From: Clostridiales bacterium
GTDB lineage: Bacteria > Bacillota > Clostridia > Lachnospirales > Lachnospiraceae
Length of the DNA: 62,682 nucleotides
Assembly: GCA_012522735.1 (NCBI GenBank)
Contig: JAAYJU010000080.1
Span: 1 to 62,682, forward strand
Reading direction: 5' to 3'
The notes under the pieces were generated by a model. That model was not told where the DNA came from. It worked only from the letters and a program-made list of their open reading frames with translations, and did not search any database. The position numbers were made by a program, and so were the translations under genes. Shown here piece after piece: positions 49,841 to 56,845 of this stretch (positions are counted from its first letter, which is position 1; the number at the start of each line of letters is the position of its first letter).

Positions 49841-51331
49841 ATGAATACATATTATCTTGCTGTTGATATCGGTGCGTCCGGCGGACGGCATATTTTGGGA
49901 TATGTAGAGGATAATAGGATAGTGACAGAGGAAATCTATCGTTTTTCTAATGGCATTAAGAATAGAAACGGCCATTTATGCTGGGATTATGATTATCTTT
50001 TTCAGGAAATAAAGAATGGAATGATTAAATGTAAGGAAGAGGGCAAAATACCTTCTAGTATGGGTATCGACACCTGGGCAGTGGATTTTGTCTTGTTGGA
50101 TGAGCAAAACCATGTGATTGGTGATACAGTAAGCTATAGAGATGCTCGCACAACAGGTGTAGATGAAAAGCTGTATCAGATTATTCCCGAGAAGGAGCTA
50201 TACTATAGAACCGGCATTCAAAGACAATCCTTTAACACCATATATCAATTATTTTCTATAAAGGAGCAATATCCTGACCATCTGGTATCTGCTAAGGCTC
50301 TTCTTATGGTACCGGACTATTTCAATTATCTGCTCACCGGAGAAAGGGTCAGCGAATACACCAATGCTACCACAACACAGCTTGTGGCAGCAGGGGAAAG
50401 AGCCTGGGATTATGATTTAATTGAAAGACTGGGATATCCTAAGGATATATTTATGCCCATTAAATCACCGGGAACATTAGTTGGAAGGCTAGTAAATAAG
50501 GTGGCAGAGGAGGTAGGTTTTAATCTAGATGTAGTACTTCCCGCTACCCATGATACTGGCTCTGCTGTACTGGCAGTTCCTTATGTCGGGGACAATCCCC
50601 AGGATGAACTTCTCCAGGATGATCCTCAGAATATATTTCCTGAGGATAGATGTTCTGAGGATGCACATCAGAATATATTTCCTCTATATATAAGCTCCGG
50701 GACCTGGTCGCTTATGGGGACCGAGTTAGATGAAGCACTTTGTAATGAGGAAAGCCGAATACATAACTTCACTAATGAAGGAGGCTATGGATATCGCTAC
50801 CGTTACTTGAAAAACATCATGGGTCTTTGGATGATACAAAGGGTAAAGGCTGAATTAGATGATAAATACTCCTTTGAGAGCTTGTGTAATATGGCAGATG
50901 AGAACAGTAGGTTTCCATCAAGGGTAGATGTGAATCATCCTGATTTTCTAGCACCAGACAGTATGATAAGGGCTGTTCAGAGTTATTGTAGGGATAATAA
51001 TCTTCAGGTGCCTGAAACACCGGGTGAGATGGCCGCCTGCATATATCTTAGCCTTGCGGATTGCTATGGCAGGACAGTCAAGGAGATTGAAGAATTGACA
51101 GGAAGAAGGTATTCTGCCATTCATATAATCGGTGGGGGAAGCAATGCAGAGTATCTTAATCGTTTGACAGTGGAAAGCACGGGGAAGACAGTACTGGCAG
51201 GACCCTCGGAGGCAACGGCCATCGGTAATATAGCAGCCCAAATGCTATATGCTAGGGAATTTACTTCTGTAAAGGAAGTTAGACGATCAATATATGATTC
51301 ATTCGGGGTGAAAAGATATGACCCTTTATAG
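49841..51331 (+). CDS. rhaB: Rhamnulokinase
   Basis: RhaB phosphorylates L-rhamnulose at C1. The 496-residue sugar kinase has the FGGY-family phosphate motif DIGASGGRHILG near residue 7, GIDTWAVDFVLLD, and HIIGGGSNAEYLNRLTVE. An extra acidic stretch of about 30 residues at 252-282 carries two QNIFP copies coded by an exact 15-bp repeat. It stands just before YISSGTWSLMG. The kinase motifs are intact, so it is probably active. AAGGAAAGG lies upstream. It is the first gene of rhaB-rhaA-rhaD. Confidence 0.95.
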   Translation: MNTYYLAVDIGASGGRHILGYVEDNRIVTEEIYRFSNGIKNRNGHLCWDYDYLFQEIKNGMIKCKEEGKIPSSMGIDTWAVDFVLLDEQNHVIGDTVSYRDARTTGVDEKLYQIIPEKELYYRTGIQRQSFNTIYQLFSIKEQYPDHLVSAKALLMVPDYFNYLLTGERVSEYTNATTTQLVAAGERAWDYDLIERLGYPKDIFMPIKSPGTLVGRLVNKVAEEVGFNLDVVLPATHDTGSAVLAVPYVGDNPQDELLQDDPQNIFPEDRCSEDAHQNIFPLYISSGTWSLMGTELDEALCNEESRIHNFTNEGGYGYRYRYLKNIMGLWMIQRVKAELDDKYSFESLCNMADENSRFPSRVDVNHPDFLAPDSMIRAVQSYCRDNNLQVPETPGEMAACIYLSLADCYGRTVKEIEELTGRRYSAIHIIGGGSNAEYLNRLTVESTGKTVLAGPSEATAIGNIAAQMLYAREFTSVKEVRRSIYDSFGVKRYDPL

Positions 51332-51453
51332 CATATTTGAAAGTATATACTTAATAACACACTAAGGACATTCTTAACTTTAGTCAAGAGAGGTTCAAAG
51401 TATAGTAGTATATGGTTAGTCAGGTGAAATATTTTAATAAATTGGAGGATAAT

Positions 51454-52710
51454 ATGGATATTGTGAAGCGCTACCAAGAAGCTAAAGAACTATATAAGCA
51501 AATCGGAGTAGATACTGAGCATGCAATCAAAAAGCTTTCAGAGGTCTCTATCTCTATGCACTGCTGGCAGGGAGATGATGTGACAGGCTTTGAAGGAGCA
51601 AGGGGACTATCAGGAGGGATACAGGCTACTGGCTCTTATCCCGGTAAAGCAAGGACTCCCAAGGAGCTTATGGACGATATGGACATGGCTCTATCCTTAA
51701 TCCCCGGAACCCATAGGATAAATCTTCACGCAAGCTACGGTGTATTCGAAGAGGGAAATTCAGCTGATAGAGACAAGATAATACCCGAGCATTTTAAGCC
51801 ATGGGTGGAATATGCAAGAGAAAGAAATTTGGGAATCGATTTTAATCCAACATTCTTCTCTCATCCTCTGGCAGATTCGGGGCTAACCTTATCCCATCCG
51901 GATGAAAGGATAAGGAGATTTTGGATTAATCACGGTAAGGCATGTCTGAAGATATCCGAATATATAGGTAAAGAGCTTAATAAGCCCTGCCTTATGAATA
52001 TATGGGTACCCGATGGTTATAAGGATATACCTGCGGACAGATATTCACCGAGAAAAAGACTTATGGATTCCTTGGATGAGATATTATCGACAGATTATAA
52101 GAAAGAATATGTTCGTATATCTGTAGAATCCAAGGTATTTGGCATCGGCCTAGAATCATATACCGTGGGCTCCCATGAATTCTATATGAATTATGCTTCC
52201 ACCAGAGGCGTGCTTTGCCTATTGGATAGCGGCCATTACCACCCAACCGAAACTATATCAGATAAAATCCCGTCATTATTATTATTCTCAGATAAGCTAG
52301 CACTCCATGTGACCAGGGCGGTGCGATGGGATAGTGATCACGTGGTTTTATTTGATGATGAGCTTAGGGAGATTGCCAAGGAAATTATCCGAAACAATGC
52401 TCTAGATAAGGTCTTGATTGGCTTGGATTATTTTGATGCAAGCATCAATCGCATTAGTGCTTGGGTAGTTGGAATGAGAAATATGATGAGGGCAATGCTC
52501 TATGCCTTGCTGCTTCCCAATGAGAGGCTGGCTCAATATCAAAGCGAAGGTAATTTTACCGAACAGATGATTCTTCAGGAGGAGTTAAAGTCTTATCCCT
52601 TCGGAGATGTATGGGATTTCTTTTGTGAGAAGATGGGGGTTCCCGTAAGGGAGAAGTGGTATATGAAGGTTAAGGAATATGAAGACAAGGTACTAGTAAA
52701 AAGAGTATAG
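51454..52710 (+). CDS. rhaA: L-rhamnose isomerase
   Basis: RhaA turns L-rhamnose into L-rhamnulose using metal ions. The 418-residue protein has the expected length and motifs, including ISMHCWQGDDVTGFE, HASYGVFE, INHGKACLKISEYIG, the metal-binding ALHVTRAVRWDSDHVVLFDDEL, and LDYFDASINRISAW. The frame is open from 51412, but GGAGG lies just before ATG 51454. It is the second gene of the operon. Confidence 0.98.
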   Translation: MDIVKRYQEAKELYKQIGVDTEHAIKKLSEVSISMHCWQGDDVTGFEGARGLSGGIQATGSYPGKARTPKELMDDMDMALSLIPGTHRINLHASYGVFEEGNSADRDKIIPEHFKPWVEYARERNLGIDFNPTFFSHPLADSGLTLSHPDERIRRFWINHGKACLKISEYIGKELNKPCLMNIWVPDGYKDIPADRYSPRKRLMDSLDEILSTDYKKEYVRISVESKVFGIGLESYTVGSHEFYMNYASTRGVLCLLDSGHYHPTETISDKIPSLLLFSDKLALHVTRAVRWDSDHVVLFDDELREIAKEIIRNNALDKVLIGLDYFDASINRISAWVVGMRNMMRAMLYALLLPNERLAQYQSEGNFTEQMILQEELKSYPFGDVWDFFCEKMGVPVREKWYMKVKEYEDKVLVKRV

Positions 52711-52729
52711 GCGTTTTGGAGGAGAAAAT

Positions 52730-53551
52730 ATGGATTTATTAAAGGAAGAATTTATCAGGGAATTTATAGACATAACAAATGAGGGATATCAAAAGGGCTG
52801 GCATGAAAGAAACGGTGGTAATGCTAGCTACCGCATTAAGCCAGAGGAGATTGAGCATATTAAGCCCTATCTTACATATGATAAGCCATATGATAAAATC
52901 GGTGTCTCGGTTCCTAATCTTAAGGGAGAATATTTTCTGATTACCGGAAGTGGCAAATATTTTCGTAAGATAAAAAATAAACCCGATGAAAATCTTGCGA
53001 TTATTGAGATTGATTCTAGCGGTCAGAATTATCGCCTAGTTTGGGGACTGACCAAGGGAGGCAGACCGACAAGTGAGCTTCCTACTCACCTTATGAATCA
53101 TTCCGTTAAAAAGGATAGAACTCATAATAGCCATAGGGTTATATACCACTGTCATCCGGCAAATGTTATTGCATTAACCTTTGTACTTCCCTTAGAGGAT
53201 GCTGTGTTTACACGGGAGCTATGGGAGATGGCCACCGAATGTCCTGTGGTATTTCCCGATGGAATCGGTGTAGTTGATTGGATGGTACCCGGTGGACGAG
53301 ATATAGCCCTGTCCACAAGCAAATTGATGGAGAAATACAATGTGGCCATATGGGCCCACCATGGAATATTCTGTTCTGGAGAGGATTTTGACGAAACTTT
53401 CGGATTGGTGGAGACTGTGGAAAAATCAGCCGAGATTCTGGTTAAGGTCCTATCCATGGTAAATGAGAAAAGGCAGACCATTACACCTGAAAATCTAAGA
53501 GATTTAGCCAAGGACTTTCAGGTAAGTCTGCCGGAGGAATTTCTTCAATAA
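52730..53551 (+). CDS. rhaD: Rhamnulose-1-phosphate aldolase
   Basis: RhaD cleaves rhamnulose 1-phosphate to dihydroxyacetone phosphate and lactaldehyde. The 273-residue class II aldolase has GGNASYRI, the phosphate-site GKYF, ELPTHLMNH, the zinc histidines in YHCHPANVIAL and in WAHHGIFCSG. It is last in the operon, 19 nt after rhaA, with GGAGG upstream. No lactaldehyde reductase or transporter is adjacent. Confidence 0.96.
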   Translation: MDLLKEEFIREFIDITNEGYQKGWHERNGGNASYRIKPEEIEHIKPYLTYDKPYDKIGVSVPNLKGEYFLITGSGKYFRKIKNKPDENLAIIEIDSSGQNYRLVWGLTKGGRPTSELPTHLMNHSVKKDRTHNSHRVIYHCHPANVIALTFVLPLEDAVFTRELWEMATECPVVFPDGIGVVDWMVPGGRDIALSTSKLMEKYNVAIWAHHGIFCSGEDFDETFGLVETVEKSAEILVKVLSMVNEKRQTITPENLRDLAKDFQVSLPEEFLQ

Positions 53552-53658
53552 TAATATAGTTTTATAGTAACTACAGTTTTTATTTGTATTAATATGCAAA
53601 ATGATGTAAAATAATATAAAGATATTATATTATTCAATATACCTTTAGATAAACTATA

Positions 53659-53689: not shown

Positions 53690-54649
53690 ATGTATAAGGA
53701 TATAGATATAGATAGTAACAATAATATAGGCTCAGCGATACAGTATTTTCGTGAGACATATCATATATCTCAAAGCAAGCTATGTAAGGGGCTTTGCTCC
53801 GTATCGACCTTGTCAAGAATTGAAGCGGGAGAAAGAGATATAGATGCCTTTATATTAGAGACTCTTTTAGAGCGCCTTGGAAAAATTCCCTATCATTTTG
53901 AGCTGATTCTTACGGATTTCGACTATGAAGCCTATCAAAGCAGGATGGAAATCAATAAGCTGATTGAAGATGGAGCTATAGACGAAGCTCATAAATTAAT
54001 AAAGGAATACGATGAATTGGCATCCGATAAAGGTTCTCCCCATAGACAATTTGTAATGGTCTGCAAAGCAAGGCTTAATGAGCTAAAGGGGGGCAAGCCT
54101 GAGGTAACCATAGATATGCTAATGGAGGCCATAGCCTGTACGGTACCTGATTTTGACACAGAGGAGTTGGCAGAGTATTTTCTAAGCACCTCAGAATTTA
54201 ATATTATTCTGGATATATTACAAAGGATGATATCTACTGGTATGACTGATAGAGCACATAAGACCTTAGACCAGATTATCAATTATCTTTTCTGGCATAG
54301 TCAGATGGAGCAAAATATTAATATCTATCCAAAGATAGCAGCCATAGGTGCTAGGTTTTTATTAGAGCAAAATGACCTTGACAGAGCCTTGGAGCTGTGC
54401 AATAAGGGTCTTGAGATGAATAAGGGTAGCCGTAGAATTAAGTATCTTGGTAAGCTAAGCCTTATTAAGGCCCGAGCAACCGAGGGAAAATTTAAAGCTG
54501 CCGGTCTGTGGGAGACATGTGATAAGGGGGAATGTATCTGCCTCTATCTTAAGGCATATCATCTGTTTCATTTCTTCGATGATTATACTAAATCAGATAG
54601 AATCAAGAAGCATTTGCGGGAGGAGTATGGATGGGAAGATATAGATTAG
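53690..54649 (+). CDS. HTH-TPR regulator of RRNPP type (first)
   Basis: The 319-residue protein has an N-terminal XRE helix-turn-helix at about residues 12-60 (AIQYFRETYHISQSKLCKGLCSVSTLSRIEAGERDIDAFILETLLERLGK) and a helical-repeat C-terminal part with TPR-like pairs (RFLLEQNDLDRALELCNKGLEMN). This is the layout of peptide-sensing RRNPP regulators such as PlcR, Rgg and NprR. It overlaps the second regulator by 19 nt, and a convergent gene for an exported small peptide lies 8 nt past the second one. It is therefore proposed to bind the imported peptide and control the peptide promoter or neighbours. CCAAGGAG lies upstream. Confidence 0.8.
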   Translation: MYKDIDIDSNNNIGSAIQYFRETYHISQSKLCKGLCSVSTLSRIEAGERDIDAFILETLLERLGKIPYHFELILTDFDYEAYQSRMEINKLIEDGAIDEAHKLIKEYDELASDKGSPHRQFVMVCKARLNELKGGKPEVTIDMLMEAIACTVPDFDTEELAEYFLSTSEFNIILDILQRMISTGMTDRAHKTLDQIINYLFWHSQMEQNINIYPKIAAIGARFLLEQNDLDRALELCNKGLEMNKGSRRIKYLGKLSLIKARATEGKFKAAGLWETCDKGECICLYLKAYHLFHFFDDYTKSDRIKKHLREEYGWEDID

Positions 54650-55563
54650 GAGATATAGTTCGTATGACCAGAAAGTCTCTGTCTATCACCCAGGAGCAGC
54701 TATGTGAGGATATCTGCTCTGCGGAGACTCTTTCCAGGATAGAGACCGGAAGGCAAAATCCCAGCAAGGATGTATATGAGCTTCTTATGGAGCGAATGGG
54801 CAGGATCAGGGACCGCGCTTATTCCATGCTGTCTGTTTCTGATTTTAAGGTACTGGAGAAGATGCGACAGTTTGAGACGTGTATTCATATCTATGATTAC
54901 CATAGGGCGGAGTATATATTAGAGGACATTAAGAGGATGCTTGGGGGGACTAATCTTGATAAGCAGTTCATTATCCGTGCCGATAGCCTAGTAAATTATC
55001 GACTAAATCGGATTGATACAGATGAATTCCTAGAGGAGCTACAAAAGGCAATCCGTATAACCATTCCCAGATATGGAGAGATATCACTATCAAATTGGCC
55101 TCTCAACCATAACGAGGTAACAATACTATTAAATATATCCTCAGTCTATTCTGAAAAGGAGGACTATAAGAAGGGAATTGATATTCTGGAGGAGGTGAAT
55201 AATGCCCTAAAGCAAAGCTATATAGACAGGGAGCAAAGAGCTATCCTGCAGGTAGTAATTACTTCAAATTTATCGAAATGGTATGGTCAGATTGAAGAGC
55301 ATCAGAAGGCTATTGAGACTGCCTATGAAGGCATAGAGATATGTAAGGAGTTTAAAATCGGTAATGTTCTCCCTCATCTATTATATAATTATGCCTGGAT
55401 TATGGAGCAGCTAATAGAAAAGGGAGAGCAATCACCTGAGAACAAGAGAGAATGTATTAGCTATCTTAAGCAAGCTTATTATATAGCATGTGCTATGCAA
55501 CAGTCATATATGGAGCAGTTTATCAAAGGTCATCTAGCTATGTATCATGATATTATGCTGTAA
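54631..55563 (+). CDS. HTH-TPR regulator of RRNPP type (second)
   Basis: The 310-residue paralogue starts inside the end of the first gene, with GGGAGGAG at 54618-54625. The helix-turn-helix is at about residues 5-58 (LGDIVRMTRKSLSITQEQLCEDICSAETLSRIETGRQNPS). The helical part has clearer TPR pairs (NISSVYSEKEDYKKGIDILEEVNNALKQ and WYGQIEEHQKAIETAYEGIEICKEF). The two regulators differ enough to bind different peptides or sites. A tandem pair of such regulators is uncommon. The gene ends 8 nt before the stop codon of the convergent peptide gene. Confidence 0.8.
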   Translation: MGRYRLGDIVRMTRKSLSITQEQLCEDICSAETLSRIETGRQNPSKDVYELLMERMGRIRDRAYSMLSVSDFKVLEKMRQFETCIHIYDYHRAEYILEDIKRMLGGTNLDKQFIIRADSLVNYRLNRIDTDEFLEELQKAIRITIPRYGEISLSNWPLNHNEVTILLNISSVYSEKEDYKKGIDILEEVNNALKQSYIDREQRAILQVVITSNLSKWYGQIEEHQKAIETAYEGIEICKEFKIGNVLPHLLYNYAWIMEQLIEKGEQSPENKRECISYLKQAYYIACAMQQSYMEQFIKGHLAMYHDIML

Positions 55564-55571
55564 ATCCAGTA

Positions 55572-55727
55572 TTAAAATAAACCAGGGGTATCAACGACAG
55601 GTGCACCGCCACCTGCGCAAACTGTGATGCCTGCATCAAGATTTGCACCAGCCTGTCCAACAGGGAGTACAAAACCTAATACCATAAGTAATGATGCTAC
55701 TACTAGTAAACTTCTTAATTTCTTCAT
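55572..55727 (-). CDS. Exported small peptide, putative quorum-sensing precursor
   Basis: The 51-residue peptide starts at ATG 55727, with GGAGG 8-9 nt upstream. It begins MKKLRSLLVVASLLMVLGFV, a basic then hydrophobic signal sequence. Probable signal peptidase cleavage is after A-G-A (residues 26-28), releasing a 23-residue peptide with one Cys (Cys37) and ending GGGAPVVDTPGLF. It converges on two RRNPP-type regulators. Phr, PapR and SHP precursors are similar in size and layout. The mature active form may be the last 5-8 residues, but this is inference. It could also be a small bacteriocin-like peptide. Confidence 0.75.
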   Translation of the reverse strand: MKKLRSLLVVASLLMVLGFVLPVGQAGANLDAGITVCAGGGAPVVDTPGLF

Positions 55728-55820: not shown

Positions 55821-55849
55821 ATTATATTATGAATAAATATAAATTAACA
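55821..55849 (-). promoter_or_regulatory. Weak promoter of the peptide gene
   Basis: On the minus strand a perfect TATAAT (55826 to 55821) has a very poor -35 region (TGTTAA, 55849 to 55844) at 17 bp. Such promoters usually need an activator. The leader would be about 87 nt. The palindrome at 55848-55896 begins where the -35 region ends. Confidence 0.45.
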
Positions 55850-55896
55850 TGTCGTAATTGGAAAAAATTTAATAAAAATTTTCCAAATACGACATG
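55848..55896. promoter_or_regulatory. Long palindrome between peptide gene and EAL gene
   Basis: CATGTCGTAATTGGAAAA (55848-55865) and TTTTCCAAATACGACATG (55879-55896) are 18-bp arms with one mismatch. The palindrome abuts the weak peptide promoter, as an activator site would. On the plus strand it is followed by GTTTTTTATTTTTT, so it may instead, or as well, be a terminator. Confidence 0.6.
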
Positions 55897-55975
55897 GTTT
55901 TTTATTTTTTGATGGTTTATGATGTAATTGTCAGAACAGCAGCAAGGCAACATAATAGACAGCGCATAAGTAGGA

Positions 55976-56845
55976 ATGCATATGATGAAGGAAAATCAAA
56001 AATACTATGACTCAAGTAAGGATTTATTGGTTTCAAAGATATGCAGCTTTAAAAATCAAATAGTGCAGAACATAGGACAGAACAAAATGGTAGGCAGAAT
56101 TCAAATGGGAATTACTAGGGACGAGTTCACCTTGTTTTATCAGCCTGAATATGACCTAAACACCAAGAAGATAATTGGTGTAGAGGCGTTAATAAGATGG
56201 ATTTCTCCTGGGAAAGGTATAATACCTCCTGATGCCTTTATACCTCTGGCAGAAAAAACCGATTTAATATACGAGCTAGAGCGTATGGTTATTTGCAAAG
56301 CGCTAGAACAAAAGCAAATATGGGAGCAGGAGGGTCTTGGGCATATCGTGCTTTCGATCAACCTATCCAGCAAATCGATAGAAAGTGAAGATGATTTTAG
56401 GATTATTGAGGAAATTATCTCATCATATAAGGTAGATTATAATACGGTTATATTTGAAATTACAGAATCAGTGGTTATTACTAATATTTCTATGGCAATG
56501 GAGCGGCTAAACAGACTTAAGAAGCATGGTATAAGGCTAGCTCTGGACGATTTTGGTACCGGATACTCCTCCTTGGTACATCTGGTGAAATTGCCTATTG
56601 ATATTATAAAGATAGATAGAAGCTTTATTAGGTCAATTCCTCATAGTAACGAAGAAACATCAATTACAAAGAACATACTTACCATGGCTCATGATCTGAA
56701 CTTTAAGGTTGTGGCTGAAGGAATTGAGACTAATGCACAGTTGGAGTATTTAAAGCAAAACTCCTGTGAAGGAGGCCAAGGCTTCCTCTTATGTGTCCCG
56801 CTACCCTCAGAGCAAGTCGCTCAGGTGATAAAAGGAAAGATGTAG
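55976..56845 (+). CDS. EAL domain cyclic-di-GMP phosphodiesterase
   Basis: The 289-residue protein is a stand-alone EAL domain that degrades cyclic di-GMP. The signature EAL is at 70-72 (GVEALIRW). Metal and catalytic residues are seen in LSINLSS, FEITES, LDDFGTGYSSL, IIKIDRSFI and VVAEGIET. The end QGFLLCVPLP replaces the usual QGYYFSKP. There is no GGDEF domain or membrane segment. It lies 80 nt past the palindrome of the peptide module, so it may be under its control. The start is one of three nearby ATG codons (55976, 55982, 55985), with a weak site. Confidence 0.9.
   Translation: MHMMKENQKYYDSSKDLLVSKICSFKNQIVQNIGQNKMVGRIQMGITRDEFTLFYQPEYDLNTKKIIGVEALIRWISPGKGIIPPDAFIPLAEKTDLIYELERMVICKALEQKQIWEQEGLGHIVLSINLSSKSIESEDDFRIIEEIISSYKVDYNTVIFEITESVVITNISMAMERLNRLKKHGIRLALDDFGTGYSSLVHLVKLPIDIIKIDRSFIRSIPHSNEETSITKNILTMAHDLNFKVVAEGIETNAQLEYLKQNSCEGGQGFLLCVPLPSEQVAQVIKGKM

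Follow-up and report, generated by a model that had tools for sequence, protein, structure and literature searches.

We analysed a 62,682-nucleotide (nt) contig of a Clostridiales bacterium of the Lachnospiraceae (JAAYJU010000080.1, assembly GCA_012522735.1; hereafter the window), in which an original prediction had proposed a peptide quorum-sensing module at 53690-55727, formed by two tandem regulators and a convergent gene for an exported peptide. The coordinates of the three genes were confirmed. Regulator 1 (53690..54649, + strand, 319 amino acids (aa)) and regulator 2 (54631..55563, + strand, 310 aa) each carry a helix-turn-helix (HTH) and a tetratricopeptide repeat (TPR)-like region, and their genes overlap by 19 nt. 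The 51-aa peptide gene (55572..55727, − strand) runs from an ATG at 55727 to a stop at 55572, tail-to-tail with regulator 2 at a distance of 8 nt, with the ribosome-binding site (RBS) AAGGAGG immediately 5′ of the ATG. Its product shows a basic start, a hydrophobic core, the residues LP and a variable tail, GQAGANLDAGITVCAGGGAPVVDTPGLF; the tail beyond the hydrophobic core counts 28 residues. The putative signal sequence satisfies a simple hydropathy rule of our own making, and the peptide has no family match in Pfam or NCBIfam. Two elements were absent from the original prediction. A near-perfect 49-nt palindrome, CATGTCGTAWTTGGAAAA..TTTTCCAAATACGACATG (55848..55896), is a putative operator common to the peptide gene and to a divergent gene (55976..56845, + strand), the presumed output, which encodes a 289-aa EAL-domain phosphodiesterase of cyclic di-GMP (c-di-GMP; EAL 1.4e-70). 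By sequence match, a −10 box lies 21 nt from each edge of the palindrome, TATAAT for the peptide gene (55821..55826, − strand) and TATGAT for the EAL gene (55918..55923, + strand). The regulator pair has its own promoter-like block, TTGTAT-17-TAAAAT (53584..53612, + strand).

Both regulators match HTH_3 above the Pfam cut-off (1.3e-6 for regulator 1; 2.8e-7 for regulator 2, which also matches HTH_31 at 1e-7), while matches to RNPP_C (1.2e-4 in regulator 2) and to TPR families fall below it. Searched by sequence against the PDB, regulator 2 best matched PlcR (1.5e-5), and nothing convincing was found for regulator 1 (best E 0.099). Structure models, each built from 10 sequences only, reached predicted local distance difference test (pLDDT) scores of 85.5 for regulator 1 and 82.7 for regulator 2 and are all-helical except for short stretches. 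The top PDB match was PlcR-PapR7-DNA (3u3w, E 1.9e-6) for the model of regulator 1 and PlcR-PapR (2qfc, E 7.8e-8) for that of regulator 2, followed in both by ComR and Rgg2 and, lower, by PrgX; Rap and NprR came lower for regulator 2. TM-scores of the PlcR matches were 0.49-0.61 by query length with a root mean square deviation above 10 Å, so the predicted fold is shared with PlcR and the angle between domains or their curvature differs.

A scan of genome contigs returned four relatives of regulator 2 at 78-85% identity (our loci L033-L036), one of them labelled Herbinix; together with the window they are called here the Herbinix type. The window and all four relatives show the same order, regulator 1, regulator 2, peptide, EAL, and the regulator promoter block also recurs in the four; regulator 2 of L036 appears short as a run of N interrupts the gene. 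The proposal that tandem regulators and peptide form a module holds in these relatives. 5′ of this unit, the window, L033 and L035 have a gene resembling rhamnulose-1-phosphate aldolase, and L034 and L036 have a different one. Given this change, the four genes seem to move together. Peptide orthologues lie at the equivalent place in L033-L036 and differ by indels of whole codons. The ratio of nonsynonymous to synonymous changes (pN/pS) is 0.46 overall; it amounts to 0.28 within the first 22 columns of the alignment and to 0.56 within the tail. These features indicate a real coding gene. Herbinix-type peptides have a common start resembling MKKLRSLLVV..LLMVLGFVLP, and their tails diverge (..DTPGLF, DTFGLY, DSLGLF, DVIIMF, EVIGLY).

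Two side observations concern the surroundings of these loci. The stretch directly 5′ of the module (49841-53551 in the window) includes the rhamnulose-1-phosphate aldolase gene and two others which we take to be rhamnulokinase-like and rhamnose isomerase-like; L034 and L036 lack it next to the module. L036 itself (SHOH01000003.1) comes from a metagenome-assembled genome labelled Anaerolineaceae, and since the genes compared on its contig are Herbinix-like, the label is probably a binning error.

With regulator 2 as query, matches were obtained in 32 of 299 Lachnospiraceae genomes, the source genome included. Several of the matching frames span 600-700 codons and are matched twice in separate places, from an HTH onwards each time, and we identify these frames as predicted fused double receptors, two HTH-TPR halves in one protein. 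Fused receptors (558-699 aa) often stand in place of the two genes across the family. In 10 of the 12 seen first (L006, L008, L009, L011, L014, L016, L024, L028, L030, L031) regulator 1 gave the higher score for the N half and regulator 2 for the C half; of the other two, which are not clear, L019 scores evenly in its C half and L023 departs from the pattern. On the 616-position fused-receptor profile, regulator 1 aligns to positions 3-260 and regulator 2 to positions 311-610, which makes them the equivalents of the N and C halves. The profile of the 12 fused proteins matched 53 of 397 Lachnospiraceae genomes at E 1e-20, again with the source genome, which holds a single copy of the module; at most three candidates were scored per genome, so that copy numbers in this search are lower bounds. 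Against 391 genomes sampled from the whole class it gave six matches at E 1e-40, the source genome included, in Lachnospiraceae and one other family.

Sixty loci were then chosen by their regulator match, 48 of the fused type with near-full profile coverage (shorter matches were left out) and 12 with a pair or a single regulator. A tree built from 65 C halves requires 8 changes of the label fused or split, 4 of them forced by well-supported branches. When broken, single and contig-end rows were removed (47 fused receptors and 10 true pairs), 4 changes between fusion and pair were needed; because of these, pair and fusion seem interchangeable, which in turn suggests that both halves matter.

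Some loci of the family depart from the common arrangement. L126 and L127 (G345) hold a row of seven HTH-TPR genes of 313-324 aa in about 16 kb, with no convergent peptide gene save one weak candidate in L126. L106:3995-8191 is a tandem of two fused double receptors with a strictly defined convergent peptide (see below) only at the second. In L094:3983-5857 and L111:3485-5347 stop codons break the fused receptor gene, and the peptide gene persists. Spread of the module by mobile elements was considered and rejected: a plasmid collection yielded one matching record at 19% coverage, and a phage collection five faecal records named "Bacteriophage sp.", of which the two examined are marked unverified. 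Of these two scaffolds of about 6 kb, L139 (MT837634.1) carries a pair with a peptide gene and L138 (MT837868.1) a fused gene without one; they are more likely bacterial fragments than phages.

We asked how often a convergent peptide gene stands at the 3′ end of a receptor gene. The strict rule called for an open reading frame (ORF) of 25-90 aa on the opposite strand, with an RBS of at least 4 nt, a basic start and a hydrophobic core, ending at most 60 nt from the 3′ end of the regulator. Such a peptide was present at 30 of 46 fused genes and at none of 247 other genes of the same loci (Fisher p 1e-29; the Fisher tests assume independent loci, and ours are partly related). The count excludes the regulator gene of L112 and the C fragment of L121, which both lie at contig edges. 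With a looser rule the figures were 32/46 and 12/247. The most frequent gap between regulator and peptide was −4 (15/44 hits), at which the two stop codons overlap. Among 19 single regulators, found in a further 20 loci and forming part of those returned by the profile searches, three had a strict peptide (fused versus single, p 0.0003); one of the 20 loci, L154, lies at a contig start and its partner may be missing. Adding three more genes that look single, L122 (with a strict peptide), L123 (also strict, at the end of a contig) and L125 (a hit by the looser rule alone), raises the count to 5/22 (p 0.0016).

The original prediction raised the question whether the peptide gene always lies beside the regulator pair. 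It does so in the Herbinix type and, under the strict rule, in the pairs L118, L119, L124, L128 and L129; the pairs L120 and L151 have none, and in L134 the only candidate lies 114 nt off. A peptide is likewise present in L139 and in L121, where only a short fragment represents the second gene. Fused and split loci share the predicted convergent-peptide layout. A set of 50 peptides, obtained by removing the strict hit of L126, which lacks a polar tail, and adding seven from looser rules or by reading (L036, L121), ranged from 36 to 76 aa with a mean of 54 aa. Twelve of the 50 tails contain the motif [IV].[TVP][CYLF].[DG], against 1.2 in shuffles; the pattern was picked post hoc with near relatives included and is a lead only.

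Each of the five Herbinix-type loci conserves the 49-nt palindrome. In much of the family, too, the peptide gene is preceded by a long palindrome whose arms measure about 20 nt. The arm starts with CCATGACGT or similar and includes GGAAA in several loci. A palindrome score of at least 15 was reached upstream of 31 of 49 peptide genes (L121 was too short to be scored), compared with 3/58 for regulator genes and 6/137 for the remaining genes (peptide versus other genes, p 7e-17). Strong palindromes upstream of the control genes L086:5802-7397 (22.8) and L092:6004-7713 (19.9) could be terminators or second operators. In the source genome (92% complete) both arms, at up to 2 mismatches per arm, occur only at 55848-55896. 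A regulon elsewhere in this genome was thus not supported: the same pattern search gave just one extra single-arm match, at C136, which is probably due to chance and has downstream a gene presumed to encode nicotinate phosphoribosyltransferase.

At a distance of 16-24 nt from its edge, the palindrome is accompanied by a −10 box (TATAAT-like, at least 5/6 matches) towards the peptide gene in 25 of 32 loci and in the opposite direction in 20 of 32; with the Herbinix type counted once, the figures are 21/28 and 16/28. These 9 of the 45 scanned positions hold 30 of 47 hits on the peptide side and 23 of 35 on the other. No −35 box was recognised: 44 promoters had on average 2.77 of 6 matches to TTGACA versus 2.55 in shuffles, and the places expected for it sit at the palindrome edge. 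The next gene is divergent in 36 of the 45 loci that have one. As far as sequence can tell, this geometry is that of a symmetric activator site flanked by divergent promoters, and the missing −35 box is as expected of activator-dependent promoters. Over 26 loci, operator likeness correlated with that of the second HTH (HTH2; r 0.353, p 0.002), also given the first HTH (HTH1; 0.332, p 0.004) or given the second TPR domain (TPR2; 0.205, p 0.026).

The divergent gene beyond the palindrome varies. All five loci of the Herbinix type have an EAL-like gene there, and L070 has an EAL gene. Elsewhere it encodes a radical S-adenosylmethionine (SAM) enzyme in L084, L094, L095 and L109 (in L091 this is the second ORF), ThiF in L086 and a histidine kinase in L083. 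Matches of neighbours to NCBIfam maturases of ribosomally synthesized and post-translationally modified peptides (RiPPs) mostly lie under the curated cut-offs, as does the best NCBIfam match, lantibiotic protection, of the ATP-binding cassette protein encoded by the second gene of L115. By a loose rule, 13 of 36 divergent next genes encode proteins below 340 aa with a signal-like start. Half of 20 neighbours searched in Pfam had no match at E 0.01. The divergent neighbour L100:6358-7206 matches HEPN_Swt1 just under the Pfam cut-off and is possibly a defence-type output.

Among known systems, PlcR-PapR of the Bacillus cereus group offers the closest structural comparison for both regulators. 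There, an exported precursor with a C-terminal signal is encoded beside its receptor and acts in positive feedback, and papR lies downstream of plcR on the same strand. The layout of the PlcR subfamily, with a single receptor and a same-strand peptide gene, is not that of the window, where two receptors face a convergent peptide gene and a palindrome of about 49 nt is common to two divergent promoters.

The original prediction held the layout to be unlike that of known RRNPP systems. This stands for the double receptor, of which we found no report, and not for the convergent peptide: in group III of the streptococcal Rgg/short hydrophobic peptide (SHP) systems, shp lies downstream of rgg and convergent to it (PMC3679016). 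The match is one of orientation only. Group III has one receptor and SHP precursors of 22-26 aa (table of PMC3679016), against 51 aa in the window and long tails in the family, and no symmetric divergent operator is described for it in the passages of PMC3679016 consulted. SHPs are exported by PptAB (PMC10075063), and Rgg-SHP systems trigger the production of RaS-RiPPs (PMC12322106). The RRNPP type occurs in Clostridia too, in C. acetobutylicum and in C. saccharoperbutylacetonicum, each system of which is reported to combine a putative RRNPP regulator with a further component (PMC7206700); the portions seen of PMC7206700 and PMC7376267 mention no paired or fused receptor, and that of PMC12700828 no tandem or fused one. 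Seven RRNPP subfamilies have been assigned to Lactobacillales and Bacillales (PMC9765709), and the word stem Lachno does not appear in the main text of PMC9765709 or PMC10075063.

The signature used by RRNPP_detector comprises a receptor of 250-500 aa with peptide-binding TPRs and an adjacent propeptide of 10-100 aa with a Sec signal, at a gap of −60 to 400 bp (PMC10075063). The precursor of the window and the 50 peptides of the family fall within the propeptide range, the gap of 8 nt within that for adjacency and both regulators of the window within that for receptors, and peptide binding by the TPRs is predicted from the top structural matches PlcR, ComR and Rgg. Fused relatives lie outside the length filter and are therefore left out by design. 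Our literature search, which most subscription papers lay outside, found no paper pairing RRNPP with Lachnospiraceae, none announcing a paired or fused double receptor in its title or the start of its abstract, and no report of a symmetric divergent operator of this type. The module looks as though it belongs with RRNPP-type systems, the double receptor and the symmetric divergent operator being the new parts, and it looks like a widespread signalling unit so far undescribed.

Taken together, the locus is probably a self-contained pheromone circuit of the RRNPP type whose double receptor comes as a pair or as a fusion. Its 51-aa precursor would be exported through its signal sequence and trimmed, and the variable tail would probably be re-imported by an oligopeptide permease; the source genome encodes proteins of the oligopeptide-binding family PF00496. 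After import, the tail may occupy the TPR groove in regulator 2, and perhaps that in regulator 1 too. For the roles of the two regulators, we prefer a joint action as a hetero-receptor, which in many relatives would be one polypeptide. Once loaded, this receptor would bind the 49-nt palindrome and activate, rather than repress, the two outward-facing promoters. Activation of the peptide gene would close a positive feedback loop, and through the other target, the EAL gene, c-di-GMP would drop at high cell density. More tentatively, and with somewhat less than even confidence, the module may represent a distinct receptor class: a constitutive hetero-receptor, built as a pair or as one fused chain and equipped with two TPR grooves as well as two HTHs, which would recognise the peptide encoded convergently to it and switch on the divergent promoters on either side of a single symmetric operator, a cassette which Lachnospiraceae would place before varied outputs (c-di-GMP phosphodiesterases, RiPP clusters, secreted proteins).

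Several observations weigh against such a circuit. A strict peptide is missing at 16 of the 46 fused genes, and the loosest rule, which finds one at 35 of them, also finds one at 58 of the 247 controls. Conversely, some single regulators (L143-L145, L122) have a peptide. The covariation of peptide tail and TPR domain expected in the original prediction was not borne out, as Mantel tests on 36 loci were not significant (TPR2, Spearman r 0.10, p 0.10; the first TPR domain (TPR1), r 0.06, p 0.21). Operator likeness did not correlate significantly with HTH1 (r 0.144, p 0.094, 26 loci) and tracks TPR2 (0.376) and TPR1 (0.255) as well; because it follows both TPR domains, part of the HTH2 signal appears to be plain relatedness. 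The palindrome is as long at the single regulators L143 and L122 as at double receptors, which indicates that two HTHs are not required for a long operator. A model in which the long operator is the footprint of four HTHs, two per unit, is weakened by the same two loci. A site at the −35 position, finally, fits a repressor equally well.

Regulator 2 alone could sense the peptide and bind DNA, with regulator 1 a modulator or a decaying duplicate. In favour of this, operator likeness correlates with HTH2 and not significantly with HTH1, and there are single regulators of the C-half type that have both a peptide and a long palindrome (L143, L122). We consider this alternative somewhat unlikely, since both halves retain an HTH and a predicted PlcR-like fold, the likenesses of TPR1 and TPR2 correlate (r 0.58), and pairs and fusions seem to replace one another on the tree. 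The hetero-receptor remains our preferred reading.

The direction of control could also be reversed, the regulators repressing both promoters until the peptide relieves repression, as in Rgg3 and PrgX. The palindrome edge does cover or touch the −35 position of both promoters. Yet promoters with no recognisable −35 box should be weak without an activator, and the nearest fold, PlcR, is that of an activator, so that we regard repression as unlikely and retain activation.

It is still less probable, in our judgement, that the small gene encodes a secreted effector, a bacteriocin-like or immunity peptide, placed under regulators whose TPR domains sense another signal. The frequent small secreted proteins among the divergent neighbours, the RiPP-type enzymes (L084, L086, L091, L094, L095, L109) and the lack of covariation between tail and TPR domains would agree with an effector. 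Against it, the peptide is constant at the receptor 3′ end while the neighbour varies from EAL to RiPP-type enzymes and histidine kinase, its conserved signal part and short variable tail resemble pheromone precursors, and the nearest folds are PlcR, ComR and Rgg. That ORF and palindrome arose by chance, or form an RNA hairpin or terminator, is very improbable despite the AT-rich region and the T runs after the palindrome on the + strand: the absence of strict hits in controls together with the codon evidence rules out a chance ORF, orthologues occur in all four close relatives, and the palindrome lies between divergent genes, upstream of both −10 boxes, with strong counterparts in most loci scored.

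Lachnospiraceae are a major gut family, and RRNPP peptide quorum sensing is best known from Bacilli. The loci assembled here provide a ready list of sets of receptor, peptide, operator and target, several of them beside RiPP-type enzymes. If the proposed circuit is true, the module of the window would couple cell density to c-di-GMP, and Lachnospiraceae would own a pheromone class with a built-in double receptor which, when fused, is missed by a filter of 250-500 aa.

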